Origin: Alphaproteobacteria bacterium
GTDB lineage: Bacteria > Pseudomonadota > Alphaproteobacteria > RF32 > CAG-239
NCBI GenBank assembly: GCA_017470585.1
Contig: JAFUYI010000017.1
Location: 1 to 38,935, forward strand
DNA length: 38,935 nucleotides
Direction: 5' to 3'
Position numbers and translations under genes: made by a program. How positions within the stretch are numbered: position 1 is the stretch's first letter; each line of letters begins with the position of its first letter. Under the pieces are notes generated by a model. It did no database searches. It was not told the DNA's origin and was given only the letters and a program-made list of their open reading frames with translations. Shown piece by piece: positions 3,562 to 38,800 of the stretch.

Positions 3562-3804
3562 AGCAAATGAAAATTTTGCAGAATCTCAAACGAGGTTCGG
3601 AGCTTTCAACGGCTCTTATCGTACACGGCATTGGTAATGTCGTCAGTCTGTGGGCAAAACGCCTTTGCGGACACTTATCTGGGTATTATGCCCGGGAGCT
3701 TATAGTGTATGTCCAATAGGTTCGCCTTTAAAGACTATAAGAGTCATTTTGTACGATATGATTGTTGAACTCCCGGACACCTCGCTCGAGGTGTCTGTTT
3801 TGGC
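3562..3804 (+). ncRNA. Structured leader RNA, divergent copy A
   Basis: A leader of about 240 nt before a secreted-protein gene. Its sequence differs widely from the other five leaders but keeps their architecture. P1 is TTCAAC (3605-3610) with GTTGAA (3764-3769). P2 is ATCGTACA (3618-3625) with TGTACGAT (3750-3757). A local hairpin pairs TCTGGGT (3678-3684) with GCCCGGGA (3690-3697) around loop ATTAT. The exchange strand CCGGGAG (3692-3698) is also complementary to CTCCCGG (3770-3776), outside P1, which would form a pseudoknot. GAGGT (3592-3596) can pair with the ACCTC of the terminator arm. The rest is a stem-rich insert not present in the others. Confidence 0.7.
3776..3803 (+). terminator. 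Intrinsic terminator ending leader A
   Basis: GACACCTCG / CGAGGTGTC forms a near-perfect hairpin followed by TGTTTT, only about 24 nt before the start codon at 3827, so the gene requires readthrough. Its 5' arm overlaps the leader's exchange strand by one base. Confidence 0.75.
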
Positions 3805-3826
3805 ATAAAAAAAGGAGTTAATACCC

Positions 3827-4378
3827 ATGAATAAGACTTTTTTAACCTTACTTTTAACCGGCATATCATATACTGCCTATAACGCAGCCGCTGTATCCGA
3901 AAATTTTGAAATCTCCACCACCATTGACCACGAAATAGTTTTAGGCAGTTTCCGCGCTTCGGCAACTGATGCTGATTTAACCAAAACCGATGATATAAAT
4001 TTAGGCACGATTTATGTTAACCCGGCGTTCAAGGAAACCCATGCTTGGTTTAGCTATAACGAATTAGGAGAAATGGATAGTGTGGAAGGCGATTTTATTG
4101 TTCGGGCAGATCGTGCCACTGTTGGCAGATTCACCGCCAATATCACTAACCCGGAAGCTTGCACAAATCGAGCTATATCCTGCGGAGGGTTAAGTATTAC
4201 ACGAAAAAAAGCTTTGTTCGGCGGAAGTGCTTCAAGCAACTGGTGCAATTTTTACATTAAATACAGCGGAAACGATAATGTTTTCACGGTATCGCCGAAT
4301 TGTAATTTTGATAATCCGGCAGACGTTACTCTCGGACCTCATAAGGCAACTCTAACCATTTCTTATAATGCGGGATAA
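3827..4378 (+). CDS. Secreted four-cysteine beta-rich protein, family copy A
   Basis: A 183-residue protein with signal peptide (residues 1-21, ending NAAA). The mature part has the family pattern: TTIDHEI, DDINLGTIYVNP, GRFTANITNPEAC, SCGGLS, WCNFYIKYSG, SPNC and a final LTISYNAG strand. Four conserved cysteines suggest two disulfides. The alternating strands and LGTI...NP motif resemble DUF4402-type or fimbrial-subunit-like sandwich proteins; that fold call is inference. AAGGAG lies 9 nt before the ATG. Its closest relative here is the minus-strand copy at 35674-36237, with a matching signal peptide and early mature region. It is monocistronic, with its own promoter, leader and terminator. 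Confidence 0.8.
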   Translation: MNKTFLTLLLTGISYTAYNAAAVSENFEISTTIDHEIVLGSFRASATDADLTKTDDINLGTIYVNPAFKETHAWFSYNELGEMDSVEGDFIVRADRATVGRFTANITNPEACTNRAISCGGLSITRKKALFGGSASSNWCNFYIKYSGNDNVFTVSPNCNFDNPADVTLGPHKATLTISYNAG

Positions 4379-13134: not shown

Positions 13135-13320
13135 CGAGGAACAACCTCTTACTTGTCTTGCTGAACTTGTTTCAGCATCTATTTTTTGAGGTCTCCTCTC
13201 CTCGTCACCCCTCGATTCCGTCAGGAATCGTCAAGGGGTCTCATGACCACAAGGGACGGTGCGTAAGTTTCAGGAGATGCCTTGACCACCGGCTGTAAAG
13301 CCGGTGGAGGCATGACGAAA
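13135..13320. repeat. Dispersed palindromic repeats flanking the IS1 element
   Basis: No gene here. The block contains the TGCTGAACTTGTTTCAGCA element (13158-13180), a hairpin GATTCC-GTCA-GGAATC (about 13204-13219), and a unit around 13271-13316 with the palindrome CCACCGGC-TGTAAA-GCCGGTGG inside GATGCCTTGAC...GAGGCATGACG. That last unit recurs inverted at 38746-38789. The order GAGGTCTCCTCTCCTCGTCACCC mirrors, in reverse, part of the block at 1000-1060, so these repeats move or are copied as composites. Confidence 0.8.
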
Positions 13321-13716
13321 AAAAGAGGCAAAAAAAGGGAAAAGCAAAAAGTGCAAAATTAGGCGTTCCCAAATAAATATAGATAATAAAATATTTTCTC
13401 TAAACAGCAGAGTAAGAGAAGCAACAACCATATCAAAAGCCTTTGAATAACGACAAGTTCTACGATTAAATCTGGCAAGTCTTCGGCGGATTATGGTATT
13501 TTTACTTTCAACCAAGCAAGTTTCAGATTTTGTTATAATATGACGTTTTGCTATCTTTAACTTGTCATATGCATAATGTCCATCTGTGCATAAGATGTTT
13601 ATATTATACCTCTTACGCAGTCTATCGGCAATAGTCTGATATGCCCATATATCAAGTGTTTTCGTTACTTCAAAATCAAGAATTTGGTTTCTGTTTCGGT
13701 CAACAGCAAGCCACAC
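13270..13716 (-). CDS. IS1 transposase catalytic part (InsB-type), made by -1 frameshift
   Basis: This is the second reading frame of the transposase. A -1 slip on the minus strand at GTTAAAAAAAAC (A8 at 13732-13739) joins InsA residues to ...KKKRNKIYVWLAVDRNRN, giving the DDE catalytic domain. The aspartates are EMDELYSY (upstream of the slip) and CTDGHYAY, and the glutamate lies in VESKNTIIRRRLARFNRRT, as in IS1 InsB. The frame does not stop inside the element: it reads through the left inverted repeat (FIWERLI) and about 90 bp of flanking repeat, adding a tail that cannot be native. The usual stop may have been lost through a small change near the end. Confidence 0.8.
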   Translation of the reverse strand: MWLAVDRNRNQILDFEVTKTLDIWAYQTIADRLRKRYNINILCTDGHYAYDKLKIAKRHIITKSETCLVESKNTIIRRRLARFNRRTCRYSKAFDMVVASLTLLFRENILLSIFIWERLILHFLLFPFFASFFRHASTGFTAGGQGIS

Positions 13717-14160
13717 ATAGATTTTGTTTCGTTTTTTTTAACGTATGAATACAGTTCATCCATTTCTAATATTTCAACATCGGTTACTTTATCGGGAACC
13801 TTCGCCATATTTAATATTTCTGTTATCATACGAGCATAATGACGAATCCAATATATTATCAGAGTGTTTGGAACATCATACATTCTCTCAAGTGACATTA
13901 TTCCTACCCCTTCCAGATAACCTTTTAAGACTTTCAAACGTAATTCCATACTATATTTTATACGCTTATCGTTTAATCTCATTGTCCTGTTGCAGGATTT
14001 GCATTTATATCTTTGCTTGCCTCCGACTATGCCGTCTTTGACCAGTTCTTCACTCCCACAATGTCTGCATCGCATCTATTTTCTCCTTTCATATTGCTTA
14101 CGATGCTTACTTTATAACATACTTTTTTATAATTGTCTATATTTATTTAGGAGTGCCAAA
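13359..14160 (-). mobile_element. IS1-family insertion sequence
   Basis: About 800 bp with imperfect terminal inverted repeats of about 28 bp. The left end TTAGGCGTTCCCAAATAAAT continues ATAGATAAT; the right end, read inward, is TTTGGCACTCCTAAATAAAT followed by ATAGACAAT. Size, two overlapping reading frames with an A8C slip site, and an InsA-type zinc finger plus InsB-type DDE domain place it in the IS1 family. No convincing 8-9 bp target duplication is visible, because both flanks are A/T runs. The right end lies 12 bp before the -35 box of leader RNA copy B. Confidence 0.85.
13665..14075 (-). CDS. IS1 InsA-type zinc-finger protein
   Basis: A 136-residue first frame of the IS1 transposase. 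The N-terminus MRCRHCGSEELVKDGI...YKCKSCNRT is the C2C2 zinc finger, followed by a helix-turn-helix (about 50-85) that binds the inverted repeats. In IS1 elements InsA alone acts as a repressor of transposition, and the -1 frameshifted fusion is the active transposase. The frame passes the A8C slip site near residue 113 and ends at 13665. The element looks nearly intact; whether it is active cannot be told from sequence. Confidence 0.85.
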   Translation of the reverse strand: MRCRHCGSEELVKDGIVGGKQRYKCKSCNRTMRLNDKRIKYSMELRLKVLKGYLEGVGIMSLERMYDVPNTLIIYWIRHYARMITEILNMAKVPDKVTDVEILEMDELYSYVKKNETKSMCGLLLTETETKFLILK

Positions 14161-14207: not shown

Positions 14208-14406
14208 GAAGTGAGCAAAAAGCCGCTTTGAGGTTTAGAACCCTCGTAAGTACCGTTTGTATCAAGACGTAGTTTGATATATCCGACTTTTATGGTTGGA
14301 AGGCAGGGAAATAAGGCTTGTCCCCAATACTTTGCACTATTGTACTTAATAGGTTCTAACTTCCAGCCACCTCGCGGGTTTTAATGCCCAAAAGGTGGTT
14401 TTTCTT
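14208..14406 (+). ncRNA. Structured leader RNA, copy B
   Basis: About 200 nt. P1 is TTAGAACC (14235-14242) with GGTTCTAA (14352-14359). P2 is TAAGTAC (14247-14253) with GTACTTA (14342-14348). A side hairpin TATCAA/TTTGATA lies at about 14260-14279. A local hairpin pairs TCCGAC (14283-14288) with GUUGGA. The exchange strand GGTTGGAAG (14294-14302) alternatively pairs with CTTCCAGCC (14360-14368), outside P1 (pseudoknot). GAGGT (14230-14234), extended by CCGC, can pair with ACCTC plus GCGG in the terminator arm. Helix sequences differ from the other copies while pairing is kept. Confidence 0.8.
14367..14406 (+). terminator. Intrinsic terminator ending leader B
   Basis: CCACCT (14367-14372) pairs with AGGTGG (14393-14398), with an inner GGG/CCC stem, followed by TTTTTCTTT. 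It ends about 30 nt before the start codon and overlaps the exchange-strand partner by two C residues. Confidence 0.8.
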
Positions 14407-14435
14407 TATAACTTTAATAAAAGAAGGAAGTTTAG

Positions 14436-14945
14436 ATGATGAATAAATATATTTTAATGCTTGGCGTTGCCGGTGTCGCTCTTGGCTCATATTGCGCCTA
14501 CGCAAGCAACTCGGCAACTATGACAGTAACCGCGACCATAGCCCATGATGTGAGTTTGGTTGCAACATCGCCACTTAATATGGGAACACTAACCATTGAT
14601 CCGTCTGATGCAACCGGTAGTTATATAAATCTTAATGGTGACGGCACGACAGGTAGTAAAGGCGGCGGTATTATCTCCTTAACCGGCTTTTCGGCAGGAA
14701 CTTTTACTGCCAATGTCCCCGATTCGTGCAAGGTTGATGATGTTATTGCGCATAATTATACTGAGAGATTATGCTTTCGAGCTGGTGATATTAACCTTGG
14801 CGGGGTTGATTTTATAGAACCATCTGTGAGCTATGTATCCGGAAATACTTTCAAATTTATGTATGATATAATAAGCTATGAAGCAGGAATAATTCCGACT
14901 TCAGGTGATTACAGCCAAAATGTGACCATTGAATATACTTTATAA
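14436..14945 (+). CDS. Secreted beta-rich protein, family copy B
   Basis: A 169-residue protein; a second ATG three bases downstream (14439) aligns with the start of copy C and may be the true start. AAGGAAG precedes it. The signal peptide (MNKYILMLGVAGVALGSYCAYA) and first mature residues (NSATMTVTATIAHDVSL) are nearly identical to copies C and D. After that the sequence diverges: it keeps LNMGTLTIDP and GTFTANVPDSC but loses most of the CGGL and C.F.IKYSG blocks, and ends NVTIEYTL. It is probably exported to the periplasm or surface. A conserved front with a variable rear is the family theme. Confidence 0.8.
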   Translation: MMNKYILMLGVAGVALGSYCAYASNSATMTVTATIAHDVSLVATSPLNMGTLTIDPSDATGSYINLNGDGTTGSKGGGIISLTGFSAGTFTANVPDSCKVDDVIAHNYTERLCFRAGDINLGGVDFIEPSVSYVSGNTFKFMYDIISYEAGIIPTSGDYSQNVTIEYTL

Positions 14946-20068: not shown

Positions 20069-20097
20069 TTTACAATGCCCGAAATTTGTGCTACATT
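20069..20097 (+). promoter_or_regulatory. Promoter of leader RNA copy C
   Basis: -35 TTTACA (20069-20074), 17-bp spacer ending TTGTGC (extended -10), -10 TACATT (20092-20097). Confidence 0.75.
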
Positions 20098-20103
20098 CTT
20101 CCT

Positions 20104-20303
20104 TGAAACGGATAAAAAGCCGTTTTGAGGTGTGAAGACCTCTCAAGTATTGTCCGTAAAGACATAAAACTACTTCTAACCATATTATGGTTGGAAGGTG
20201 GAGGAATAAGGATAAAACCAAATACTCTGCACTGTTATACTTGACAGTCTTCAACTTCCAACCACCTCTAAGGTTTAATGCCCGAAAGGTGGTTTTCTTT
20301 TTT
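20104..20303 (+). ncRNA. Structured leader RNA, copy C
   Basis: P1 is TGAAGAC (20133-20139) with GTCTTCA (20247-20253). P2 is CAAGTAT (20144-20150) with ATACTTG (20237-20243). A local hairpin pairs TTCTAACC (20174-20181) with GGTTGGAA around ATATTAT. The exchange strand GGTTGGAAG (20189-20197) is also perfectly complementary to CTTCCAACC (20255-20263), outside P1. GAGGTG (20127-20132) can pair with CACCTC (20263-20268), the terminator's 5' arm. This copy shows the alternative pairings most clearly because almost all are Watson-Crick. Confidence 0.82.
20262..20303 (+). terminator. Intrinsic terminator ending leader C
   Basis: CCACCT pairs with AGGTGG (20287-20292), followed by TTTTCTTTTTT; it ends about 30 nt before the start codon. 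Confidence 0.8.
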
Positions 20304-20334
20304 ATAACGTTAATAAAAAAAGGAAGTTTAGATT

Positions 20335-20877
20335 ATGAATAAATATATTTTAATGCTCGGCGTTGCAGGCGTTGCATTTGGCTCTTATGCCGCCTATGCG
20401 GGCAATTCCGCCACAATGACCGTAACAGCCACAATCGCCCACGATGTGAGCCTAACCAAAACCGGCGATATAAATTTAGGTACCATCACTATCAATCCGG
20501 CTTATACGGGAGATGATACAAACTGGTCTTATAGCGATTCGGGGGTAATCAATTTAAACTCTCAAGGAGCGATTGTTTCGGCAGATAATGCTACTGTCGG
20601 CACTTTTACGGCTAATATCCCCAATCCGTCTGCCTGCAGTGCAGGAGAATATTCCTGCGGAGGGTTGATAATAGATGCCGGTAGCGGTGACGGTGAGATT
20701 ATGCACAATGTCTTTGGGGGGGATAGTGATGATTATTGCGCCTTTATTATAAAATACAGCGGTTCGGGAAACAGCTTTAAGGTATATCCGCAGAGTTGCG
20801 CTATTTACGATGTATCAACAGTTGGTATCGGTGATCATTCACACACCATAACCATAAACTATTCAACCGGCGGCTAA
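20335..20877 (+). CDS. Secreted four-cysteine beta-rich protein, family copy C
   Basis: A 180-residue protein with signal peptide (1-22, ending AYA) and mature start GNSATMTVTATIAHDVSL. The core blocks are complete: GDINLGTITINPAYTG, GTFTANIPNPSAC, YSCGGL, VFGGDSDDYCAFIIKYSGSGNSF, a last cysteine (QSCAIYDV) and ITINYSTGG. The four core cysteines agree with copies A, D and F. AGGAAG precedes the ATG. The fold is probably an Ig-like or DUF4402-like sandwich (inference). It is a good family reference sequence. Confidence 0.82.
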   Translation: MNKYILMLGVAGVAFGSYAAYAGNSATMTVTATIAHDVSLTKTGDINLGTITINPAYTGDDTNWSYSDSGVINLNSQGAIVSADNATVGTFTANIPNPSACSAGEYSCGGLIIDAGSGDGEIMHNVFGGDSDDYCAFIIKYSGSGNSFKVYPQSCAIYDVSTVGIGDHSHTITINYSTGG

Positions 20878-21023: not shown

Positions 21024-21099
21024 AGGGGTATAGCTCAGTTGGTAGAGCATCGGTCTCCAAAACCGAGGGTCGTGAGTTCGAATCTTACTGCCCCTGCCA
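21024..21099 (+). tRNA. tRNA-Trp (anticodon CCA)
   Basis: A 76-nt tRNA with acceptor stem AGGGGTA / TGCCCCT, discriminator G73 (the tryptophan identity base) and an encoded CCA end. The anticodon stem TCGGT/ACCGA encloses loop CTCCAAA, giving anticodon CCA. The D-arm TAGCTCAGTTGGTAGAGCA and T-arm GTGAGTTCGAATCTTAC are standard. A rho-independent terminator follows. Its 3' end and terminator are duplicated 176 bp downstream. Confidence 0.96.
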
Positions 21100-21316
21100 T
21101 AAGAAAAACCTCCCTTCGGGGAGTTTTTTTGTTGCATAGGGGCAGTTGATGAGAACTCACGAGGAAGTGAGTTCGACTACCAACGAAAGGCGAGCGAGAG
21201 CGCGCCGGTCAGCCGAGGGCTGATGAGTGCCTGTGCGGCCGAGCAAAGCGAAGGTCAATCTTACTGCCCCTGCCATAAGGAAAACCTCCCTTCAGGGAGG
21301 TTTTTTGTTGCATAGG
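21081..21316 (+). repeat. Direct repeat of the tRNA-Trp 3' end and terminator around a 116-bp insert
   Basis: The 60 bp from AATCTTACTGCCCCTGCCAT through the terminator to TTTGTTGCATAGG (21081-21140) recurs at 21257-21316 with a few changes. The spacer (21141-21256) is G+C-rich, starts GGGCAGTTGATGAG, and contains a hairpin AACTCAC/GTGAGTT and a second T-arm-like GTGAGTTCGA. The second copy lacks the 5' part of the tRNA. The layout resembles an att-site or tRNA-associated duplication; no integrase gene is present. Confidence 0.8.
21107..21130 (+). terminator. Terminator of tRNA-Trp
   Basis: CTCCC-TTC-GGGAG-type hairpin followed by seven T residues, 8 nt behind the tRNA's CCA. Confidence 0.85.
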
Positions 21317-21324
21317 AACTTCCC

Positions 21325-21610
21325 CTCTCGTCACCTATCTCTTCGGCATCATCCCCTTCTATATCACGCCCCCGTCTATTCGGTGTCCTTCCCCTCCTAT
21401 ATCACGCACCCATCTATTCGGTTCCTTCCCCTATCATGTCACGCCGCACTTGATGCGGCGTCCAGGTTAAAAAATAAGCCGATTTTAAACCTGATGCCAA
21501 AGTCAAGTCCTGTAATTGACATCGGGATGGACAGCACCCCGCTTGTCTTGCTGAACTTGTTTCAGCATCTATGTTAAAGGTCCTGAAACAAGTTCAGGAC
21601 GACAATTGGG
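21325..21610. repeat. Dispersed palindromic repeats before leader D
   Basis: No gene here. Units of the CACGCACCCATCTATTCGG... type (the reverse of the tandem array near 560-845), the palindrome GCCGCACTTGATGCGGC (about 21443-21459), TGCTGAACTTGTTTCAGCA (21549-21568) and CCTGAAACAAGTTCAGG (21580-21597) are mixed together. Apparent open frames are repeat translations. Confidence 0.8.
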
Positions 21611-21643
21611 GCGGGGGAATAATAAAAAACTATAAAATTTTTC

Positions 21644-21678: not shown

Positions 21679-21870
21679 GAAGTGAATGAAAAGTCACTTT
21701 GAGGTGTTGCTACCTCTCATTCAGTGTCCTATCAAGACATAAAATTTGCTTTCAGCCTGATTATGGTTGGAAGGTAGGGAAATAAGGCTTGCCAAATACT
21801 CTACACTGTTCTGAATGACAGTAGCAAACTTCCAATCACCTCGTCTGTATGTCGGGGTGGTTTCTTTTTT
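21679..21870 (+). ncRNA. Structured leader RNA, copy D
   Basis: P1 is TTGCTAC (21707-21713) with GTAGCAA (21821-21827). P2 is CATTCAG (21718-21724) with CTGAATG (21811-21817). A small hairpin TGTC/GACA lies near 21725-21738. A local hairpin pairs CTTTCAGCC (21749-21757) with GGTTGGAAG (21765-21773) around TGATTAT. That exchange strand alternatively pairs with CTTCCAATC (21829-21837), outside P1. GAGGTG (21701-21706) can pair with CACCTC in the terminator arm. Confidence 0.8.
21835..21870 (+). terminator. Intrinsic terminator ending leader D
   Basis: ATCACC pairs with GGTGGT (about 21856-21861), followed by TTTCTTTTTT; weaker than in copies B, C and E. It ends about 30 nt before the start codon. 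Confidence 0.68.
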
Positions 21871-21900
21871 ATAGCTTTAATAAAAAAAGGAAGTTTGAAT

Positions 21901-22437
21901 ATGAAAAACTATATTTTAATGCTCGGCGTGGCGGGAGTTGCCTTTGGCACTTATGCCGCATACGCCGACAACTCGGCAACAATGACCGTTACTGCCACAA
22001 TCGCCCACGATGTGAGCTTAACTGTAACTCAAGATATAGACTTTGGCACAATTACCATCAATCCGGGATATACTGGCAGTACATCTTGGCAATATAGCTA
22101 TGAATCTGGTGCAGTCGAATATATTGATCAAGGAGCTATTGTTTCGGCAGATGATATTACGTTCGGCACTTTTACCGCAAATATTCCCAATCCTTCGGCT
22201 TGTAATATGCCAAATGATGCTTGCGGCGGTTTAGATGTTTCTGGAAACGAAGGGGATACTATTTATAATCTCTTTGGAGGAAGTGATAATTCCAACTATT
22301 GCTATATTCATACGAAATACACTGGATCTGATCACAATTTCATTATGTCTGCTGATTATTGTGCAATATACGACATCTCAAAAGTCACCACCGGCTCGCA
22401 CACTGGTACTGTAACCATTAGCTACACGCCAAGCTGA
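21901..22437 (+). CDS. Secreted four-cysteine beta-rich protein, family copy D
   Basis: A 178-residue protein starting at ATG 21901 (MKNYILMLGVAG); a TTG two codons earlier is less likely given AAGGAAG at its normal distance. The signal peptide ends AYA and the mature start is DNSATMTVTATIAHDVSL, as in copies B and C. Core blocks: DIDFGTITINPGYTG, GTFTANIPNPSAC, ACGGLDVSG, LFGGSDNSNYCYIHTKYTGSDHNF, a final cysteine (DYCAIYD) and TGTVTISYTPS. It has its own promoter, leader and terminator. Likely exported; role unknown. Confidence 0.82.
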   Translation: MKNYILMLGVAGVAFGTYAAYADNSATMTVTATIAHDVSLTVTQDIDFGTITINPGYTGSTSWQYSYESGAVEYIDQGAIVSADDITFGTFTANIPNPSACNMPNDACGGLDVSGNEGDTIYNLFGGSDNSNYCYIHTKYTGSDHNFIMSADYCAIYDISKVTTGSHTGTVTISYTPS

Positions 22438-30082: not shown

Positions 30083-30275
30083 GAAGCGAAGGATTTTCGC
30101 TTTGAGGTGTGATAGCCTCTCAATAGGCGTTTTTGAAAAACGTAAAATTCTTTCAGCCGGATTATGGTTGGAAGGTAGAGGAATAAAAATTATCGAATAC
30201 TCTGCACTGATCCTATTGTCAGCTATCAACTTCCAGCCACCTCGCGGGTTTAATACCCAAAAGGTGGTTTTTCTT
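30083..30275 (+). ncRNA. Structured leader RNA, copy E
   Basis: P1 is TGATAGC (30110-30116) with GCTATCA (30222-30228). P2 is CAATAGG (30121-30127) with CCTATTG (30212-30218). A side hairpin CGTTTTT/AAAAACG lies near 30128-30142. A local hairpin pairs CTTTCAGCC (30150-30158) with GGTTGGAAG (30166-30174). That exchange strand alternatively pairs with CTTCCAGCC (30230-30238), outside P1. GAGGTG (30104-30109) can pair with CACCTC at the terminator arm. Confidence 0.82.
30237..30275 (+). terminator. Intrinsic terminator ending leader E
   Basis: CCACCT pairs with AGGTGG (30262-30267), inner GGG/CCC stem, then TTTTTCTTT; about 33 nt before the start codon. Confidence 0.8.
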
Positions 30276-30307
30276 TATGACGCTAATAAAAAAAGGAAGT
30301 TTTTAAG

Positions 30308-36237: not shown

Positions 36238-36270
36238 CTAAACTTCCTCTTATGTTTCTTTGTGCTTTAT

Positions 36271-36312
36271 AAAAAAAGAAACCACCTTTCGAGCATTTGC
36301 CCCGGAGGTGGT
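36271..36312 (-). terminator. Intrinsic terminator ending leader F
   Basis: Minus strand: CCACCT pairs with AGGTGG, followed by TTTCTTTTTTT; about 34 nt before the start codon. Confidence 0.78.
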
Positions 36313-36469
36313 CGGAAGTTAGCAACTATCAGTTATAATAGTCCCGCGTATTTGTAAAATTACTTATTCCGCAGGCTTCCGACCATAAGCCGGATATAAA
36401 CCAAATAACGCTTTGGTAAAACGATAACTGAAAGGTTGCTACACCTCAAAGCGGCTTTTCGCTCGCTTC
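36271..36469 (-). ncRNA. Structured leader RNA, copy F
   Basis: Read on the minus strand. P1 is TAGCAAC (36435-36441) with GTTGCTA (36320-36326). P2 is CAGTTAT (36424-36430) with ATAACTG (36330-36336). A local hairpin pairs TCCGGC (36389-36394) with GUCGGA. The exchange strand GGTCGGAAG (36376-36384) also pairs with CTTCCGACC (36310-36318), outside P1. Relative to the GGTTGGAAG/CTTCCAACC of copy C, both strands changed together (U to C, A to G), a compensatory substitution in the pseudoknot helix. GAGGTG lies just 5' of P1, as in the others. Confidence 0.82.
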
Positions 36470-38160: not shown

Positions 38161-38800
38161 GTCGTCCTGCCACCCCAATTGTCGTCCTGAATAACCAAGC
38201 TGTCGTCCGGAACTCCCCCAAAATTGTCGTCCTGAACCACCAAGCTGTCGTTCCGAACTCCCCCTTGTTGTCCTAAACGCCCCCTTTGTCGTCCTGAACT
38301 TGTTTCAGGACCTCTAAAAAAGATGCTGAAACAAGTTCAGCATGACGTTGGAAGAGTAAGCCTAAATACCATTTTTGTCATCCTGAACTCGTTTCAGGAT
38401 CTCTAAAAAAGATGCTGAAACAAGTTCAGCCCCATTTCCTTTTTATGCCGTGCTTGACCTGATTATCCATTCCCCTCACTGATGTCATTGTCGGGCTTGA
38501 TCCGGCAATCCAGGTCTATAAATCAGCAAATTGTTTTACATGGACGCCGCATCAAGTGCGGCGTGACATAGGAGGGGAAGAACGCCGAAACAAGTTCGGC
38601 TTTGATGACAAGGAAAAGTAAGGCTAAACACCGGTTTTGTCGTCATGAACACACCCAATTGTCGTCCTGAACTTGTTTCAGGACCTCTAACCTAGATGCT
38701 GAAACAAGTTCAGCAAGACAAGCAGGGTAAAATACCTCCCCTTTACGTCATGCCTCCACCGGCTGTAAGCCGGGGGTCAAGGCATCTCCCGAAATTTAGG
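38160..38800. repeat. Mosaic of dispersed palindromic repeats at the right side
   Basis: Contains a run of TTGTCGTCCTGAAC-type units (38160-38310), CTGAAC-TYGTTTCAG elements in both orientations (38289-38345, 38381-38430, 38661-38718), the palindrome GCCGCATCAAGTGCGGC (about 38545-38561) with the same left neighbour (GTCTATAA..CAAATTGTTTTAC) as at 499-525, and the CCACCGGC-TGTAAGCC unit inverted (38746-38789). No gene. Confidence 0.85.

Follow-up and report, generated by a model that had tools for sequence, protein, structure and literature searches.

Locus and structure of the leader

Six genes of a secreted-protein family, at 3827, 14436, 20335, 21895, 30308 and 36237, were found in the window, the whole stretch of 38,935 nt that was analysed. 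The family proteins have a signal peptide followed by NSATMTVTATIAHDVSL or SENFEISTTIDHEI, and each of the six genes has a promoter and then a leader of about 230 nt. The parts of the copy before gene 20335 are as follows.

20069..20097, +, promoter (TTTACA, 17 nt, TACATT)
20104..20127, +, P1, the 5' hairpin, from folding; its arms co-vary
20127..20142, +, P2 hairpin GAGG...CCUC, pairing 100% among 48 diverse copies; loop 20133-20138 serves as K1 5' strand
20133..20139, +, K1 5' strand UGAAGAC, partner 20247-20253
20143..20150, +, K2 5' strand UCAAGUAU, partner 20237-20244
20173..20181, +, strand A (CUUCUAACC), upstream partner of B from partner-swap tests; folds with B
20189..20197, +, strand B (GGUUGGAAG), which pairs with either A or C, from covariation
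20198..20230, +, P5 (20198-20203 / 20225-20230) with the invariant internal loop RAAUA...AAUA; 6/6 pairs covary
20231..20248, +, H6 hairpin ACUGU...ACAGU, 100% paired with 2 compensatory pairs; its loop is the K2 3' strand
20237..20244, +, K2 3' strand AUACUUGA, from covariation
20247..20253, +, K1 3' strand GUCUUCA, from covariation
20255..20263, +, strand C (CUUCCAACC), pairs with B; its final nucleotides make up the terminator base
20260..20304, +, terminator, hairpin 20260-20294 (-13.7 kcal/mol) and T-rich tract
20322..20328, +, ribosome-binding site GGAAGUU, complement of AACUUCC (20253-20259)
20335..20877, +, family gene, secreted protein of 180 aa

The genome-wide leader set consisted of 120 distinct loci retrieved from the same genome (effective number 117), and helices were derived from mutual information in these 120 leaders and from pair counts in 48 diverse leaders. 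The helices found were P1, P2, P4, the long-range helix B/C, P5, H6, the terminator, K1 and K2. Across the 48 diverse leaders the whole structure was 96.1% paired, with a covariation score of 0.37 against 0.17 when shuffled, and this signal collapsed on a one-column slide. The AAUA positions of the P5 internal loop were invariant and unpaired in the 120 leaders, and this loop is a candidate sensor site. Covariation and conservation together describe a folded core with invariant unpaired positions, as in a riboswitch.

The minimum-energy fold of the 20335 leader (-75 kcal/mol, z -7.0) is the state designated OFF below and contains P1, K1/K2, the A/B hairpin, P5, the terminator and C on the ribosome-binding site. 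K1/K2 are nested with A/B in this fold and form a pseudoknot if combined with B/C.

The remaining leader copies of the window and their terminator hairpins are as follows.

3598..3826, +, divergent copy before gene 3827 (R2 E = 6e-5, R1 E = 1.8e-4); hairpin 3774-3797, -16.1 kcal/mol
14228..14438, +, copy before gene 14436/14439 (CM E = 3e-31); hairpin 14366-14399, -16.9 kcal/mol
21699..21900, +, copy before gene 21895/21901 (CM E = 8e-31); hairpin 21834-21862, -13.9 kcal/mol
30102..30307, +, copy before gene 30308 (CM E = 3e-34); hairpin 30236-30268, -16.3 kcal/mol
36238..36449, -, copy before gene 36237 (CM E = 1.6e-32); hairpin 36313-36280, minus strand, -17.2 kcal/mol

In the copy before 3827, B/C is CCGGGAG/CUCCCGG, C and the ribosome-binding site are AACUCC/GGAGUU, and the fold z is -5.2. 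The covariance-model match places the 3827 leader in this RNA family as a divergent copy.

Other elements of the window were recorded by eye or as repeats. Judged by eye, two adjacent ORFs (13270-14075, minus strand) resemble both frames of an IS1-type transposase; they sit immediately 5' of the leader at 14160. Palindromic repeats (CCTGAACTTGTTTCAGGATCTC) dispersed over the window, and tandem arrays of a unit of roughly 39 nt (GGAAGGACACCGAATAGGTAGGTAGCGTGACATAGTAG), were located at 500-1190, 13150-13212, 21340-21613 and 38170-38730. The end of a tRNA-Trp gene with the terminator-like hairpin after it (21081-21140) is repeated, 95% identical, 176 nt downstream at 21257-21316.

Terminator and promoter

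A terminator before every family gene had been proposed in the initial annotation, and this was confirmed. All six window leaders have a terminator hairpin between promoter and start codon, ending 29-42 nt 5' of the start codon and followed by a T-rich tract. Genome-wide, a hairpin at -8 kcal/mol or better was present in 120/120 distinct leaders compared with 4/120 dinucleotide-shuffled sequences, with a mean energy of -16.6 kcal/mol. A sigma-70-like promoter was found at a constant place just 5' of P1 in 103/111 leaders (19/111 when shuffled). The terminator thus lies between promoter and gene, as in an attenuator. Most relatives likewise have the gene start within about 40 nt of the terminator. 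A second promoter between terminator and start codon was rejected, since the gap appears too short to leave room for one.

The terminator 5' arm, described earlier as CCACCUC and as overlapping the exchange strand, is literal in most copies, with GGACACCUC at 3827 and UCACCUC at 21901. In relatives the arm is usually GUCGC..., not CACCUC. The overlap itself is real. At 20262-20303 the CCACCUC arm and strand C (20255-20263) share 2 nt, or 4 nt (AACC, 20260-20263) if the longest hairpin is followed to its base; the overall range is 2-4 nt here, and relatives share about 3 nt.

It had also been suggested that the antiterminator is a 5' GAGGUG capturing the CACCUC of this arm. The complementarity is perfect in most copies of this genome, but GAGG pairs with CCUC inside its own hairpin P2, and the terminator arms of relatives usually lack CACCUC. 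No co-variation was seen: 534/3000 permutations in this genome and 1749/2000 in relatives were as good as the true partners. The capture was rejected on these partner swaps, and we consider it extremely unlikely.

Strand exchange and the ribosome-binding site

The long-range helix B/C was 99.5% paired in the 48 diverse leaders, with compensatory changes at 4/9 pairs. Upstream of B lies strand A, which is similar to C. When A and B partners were swapped, no permutation was as good in this genome (0/3000), in 57 non-redundant relatives (0/2000) or in 26 sequences from distant families (0/5000), and the B-C co-evolution was likewise supported in the same three sets; these permutation statistics ignore shared ancestry. 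A/B and B/C are mutually exclusive because both use B. The attenuation-type leader proposed initially is supported: the terminator arm overlaps a strand with an alternative partner, and partner swaps in all three sets confirm the exchange of A/B and B/C.

The beginning of C and the two A's preceding it (AACUUCC) are the complement of the ribosome-binding site GGAAGUU. The motif GGAAG was found upstream of 116/120 family genes and of 1/23 other window genes. Partner swaps of C and the ribosome-binding site, likewise uncorrected for shared ancestry, gave 0/3000 as good in this genome, 0/2000 in relatives and 3/5000 in the set of distant sequences only, and part of this co-evolution signal falls between lineages. 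Where C varies, the ribosome-binding site tends to vary along with it. Compensatory variants were AACCUCC/GGAGGUU in L345, with CCUCC/GGAGG also in L359 and L362; CUCC/GGAG in the window copy 3827, L358 and L363; and AACCUCU/AGAGGUU (CCUCU/AGAGG) in L161. Since C complements the ribosome-binding site with compensatory variants, the simplest reading is that this one strand can control termination and translation together. The co-evolution of A-B, B-C and C with the ribosome-binding site, together with the terminator overlap, outlines an expression platform with mutually exclusive folds, as in a riboswitch.

The leaders could instead yield a stable, terminated small RNA, with the downstream gene expressed only by constitutive leakage and the alternative pairings being folding intermediates. 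The strong terminator in 120/120 leaders and a minimum-energy fold that is the terminated form would suit such an RNA, but the co-evolution of C with the ribosome-binding site and of A with B makes most sense with the downstream gene regulated, and in most relatives the distance from terminator to gene is at most about 40 nt. We regard this explanation as improbable, and regulation of the downstream gene is the preferred reading.

In relatives, pairing of C with B would reduce the terminator to a short stem at some distance from the T tract. In this genome it takes only 2-4 nt off the terminator, and so may weaken rather than abolish termination. Minimum-energy folding strongly favours the OFF state. 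The predicted strength in the 20335 leader was about -11 kcal/mol for A/B and about -24 kcal/mol for the B..C domain, and since A/B is the weaker of the two a default ON state may be possible in these predictions.

Long-range helices K1 and K2

In K1, the P2 loop pairs with the strand 3' of H6, and in K2 the strand 3' of P2 pairs with the H6 loop. Over the 120 leaders, mutual information was up to 1.86 bits at 99-100% pairing for K1 and 0.98-1.77 bits at 97-100% pairing for K2; 0/500 shuffles reached the observed values and a one-column slide destroyed the signal. Almost every copy carries a sequence of its own in these hypervariable helices, yet remains about 99% complementary. Partner swaps of K1 gave 0/3000 as good in this genome, 0/5000 in relatives and 0/5000 in distant sequences, and the pairing of K2 was likewise supported in all three.

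This variability raised the idea that K1/K2 are private addresses, through which a terminated leader would regulate in trans the copy it came from or near-identical ones, and members would be controlled singly. For K1 and K2 together, the own strand indeed pairs better than any foreign leader, and no two of the 120 copies share the sequence. K2 alone, however, was shared above chance (34 pairs against 3.7), so that selection against sharing is not apparent; other unconstrained leader sites are randomised to an equal degree, and drift with compensation is enough to explain the variability. A private address code was rejected, selection for it not being seen among the 120 copies, and we give it hardly any credence.

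In relatives (e.g. L142, L154, L182 and L200) the P1 loop is complementary to the terminator loop, as UGAUGA/UCAUCA, GGUG/CACC or GGUU/AACC. This contact co-varies in relatives (0/5000 permutations as good); in this genome 74/3000 were as good, and the contact was omitted from the core model because of this weak support.

Copy number and distribution

The core pattern YYGGAAGNNNNNNRAATA had 248 matches in the 1.55 Mb genome and 2 with the reversed control; some of the 248 may be assembly duplicates at contig ends. The covariance model gave at least 150 matches in this genome, all of those listed at E < 4e-28. The copy number is far above that of GEMM riboswitches, and about 248 copies per 1.55 Mb genome is, to our knowledge, far beyond any riboswitch class.

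At least 150 paralogues of the secreted-protein family were present in this genome. With the same single protein as query, 38 relatives gave no match, and the family protein had neither a Pfam family above cut-off nor a PDB sequence match. Among further leaders inspected, 16/17 preceded a family gene and 1/17 an unrelated lipoprotein. Roughly, nearly all of the about 240 related secreted-protein genes here begin with the same folded RNA, in line with the earlier claim that the leader is common to the whole gene family. In this genome, the leader L370 (G000:C30) was seen before an unrelated small lipoprotein.

The RNA was present in 117/126 genomes sampled from the family, 142/153 genomes of the order and 34/385 genomes drawn from the class, the latter in 28 genera. 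Named matches confirmed by the model were gut and rumen Alphaproteobacteria, Rhodospirillales or unclassified proteobacteria. Pattern matches in many unrelated phyla were set aside as chance, the model matching only records labelled Alphaproteobacteria, Rhodospirillales or proteobacteria. A phage origin was also rejected, as 13 viral contigs were matched by the pattern and 0/13 by the covariance model.

Genes downstream in relatives encode outer-membrane beta-barrels, lipoproteins, pilin-like proteins, glycosyltransferases, HTH regulators and others. A second genome, from another genus of the same family (G044), had 92 core-pattern copies (3 in the control) and at least 170 pilin-like paralogues (GRSMIEMLGVLAIIGVLS; loci L132, L188 and L384-L393), and in the cases checked the leaders lay directly 5' of pilin-like genes. 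The second genus amplified the RNA independently. The RNA has thus stayed constant, and the surface family amplified with it differs between lineages.

Proposed mechanism

The leader is likely a cis-acting, riboswitch-like two-state RNA with dual control, an orphan among such elements. The initial interpretation is partly supported; the complement of C and the ribosome-binding site, the K1/K2 helices, the approximately 248 copies and the unrelated downstream genes in other genera go beyond it.

The base pairs and their alternatives are established by covariation in the aligned leaders, and from these we infer the direction, with A/B as off and B/C as on. In the OFF state, B would be held by the upstream A, leaving C free and the full terminator able to form; in transcripts that read through, C would pair with the ribosome-binding site and block translation. 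In the ON state, C would pair with B, closing a three-way junction with P5 and H6, removing 2-4 nt from the terminator base and preventing C from masking the ribosome-binding site. The long-range helices K1 and K2 tie the 5' hairpin P2 to the domain of B/C, P5 and H6. The choice between the states would be made by a signal whose binding site is probably the invariant internal loop of P5.

The main rival explanation is that the sensor is a protein, either a regulator or a processive antitermination factor, that recognises the leader in place of a small molecule. A global regulator would explain the many unrelated targets no less than a metabolite would, and a protein could bind at the invariant internal loop of P5. 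Most protein-binding leaders, however, need less elaborate folds than that of K1, K2 and H6, and we consider a protein sensor rather unlikely.

Under the riboswitch-like reading, a single signal probably governs a regulon of surface-protein genes, since the same element stands before many of them. More tentatively, the leader may represent a new and widespread sensor-RNA class of the Alphaproteobacteria that controls the surface proteome. A single signal would then jointly set how hundreds of variable secreted proteins are transcribed and translated, and lineages would repeatedly amplify the RNA with a different surface family.

The structured RNA, which Rfam does not contain, shows unusually strong covariation; most genomes of one order of gut Alphaproteobacteria carry it, and it recurs in scattered families of the class. 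If one signal is sensed, it sets the surface of these bacteria, and with the ligand in hand the control of a huge surface-protein repertoire could be tested directly. The use of one strand as terminator base, antiterminator and anti-Shine-Dalgarno would be a compact platform for dual control.

Comparison with known systems

The absence of a known sensor motif, stated in the initial annotation, was corroborated. A search of Rfam 15 (4227 families, including T-box, SAM, TPP and GEMM) at the gathering score returned tRNA matches only, and at E up to 10 there was no meaningful match to the leader RNA; a known RNA family was rejected on this basis. A literature search found no description of it.

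The Bacillus rplJL leader is a ribosomal-protein attenuator (PMC4538822), and leaders of its type share a competing antiterminator and terminator with the RNA described here. The targets of the latter are surface proteins, glycosyltransferases and regulators, unlike those of ribosomal-protein attenuators; no ribosomal-protein operon was found among the downstream genes in relatives, and feedback logic is not visible.

GEMM riboswitches (c-di-GMP / cGAMP) have envelope, pili and surface targets and several copies per genome (PMC8683041). The leader RNA is alike in both respects, but has no sequence or structure match to them in Rfam.

Dual regulation is known from the c-di-GMP-I riboswitch Bc1 (PMC11218506). 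With riboswitches that act on both a terminator and a ribosome-binding site, the leader shares the 5' position, a conserved folded core, an anti-Shine-Dalgarno strand, a regulon of separate genes, and the exchange of a terminator-compatible fold with an alternative one. Unlike them it has no Rfam riboswitch match, and it also differs in that strand C serves both outputs, in its two hypervariable long-range helices and in its hundreds of copies.
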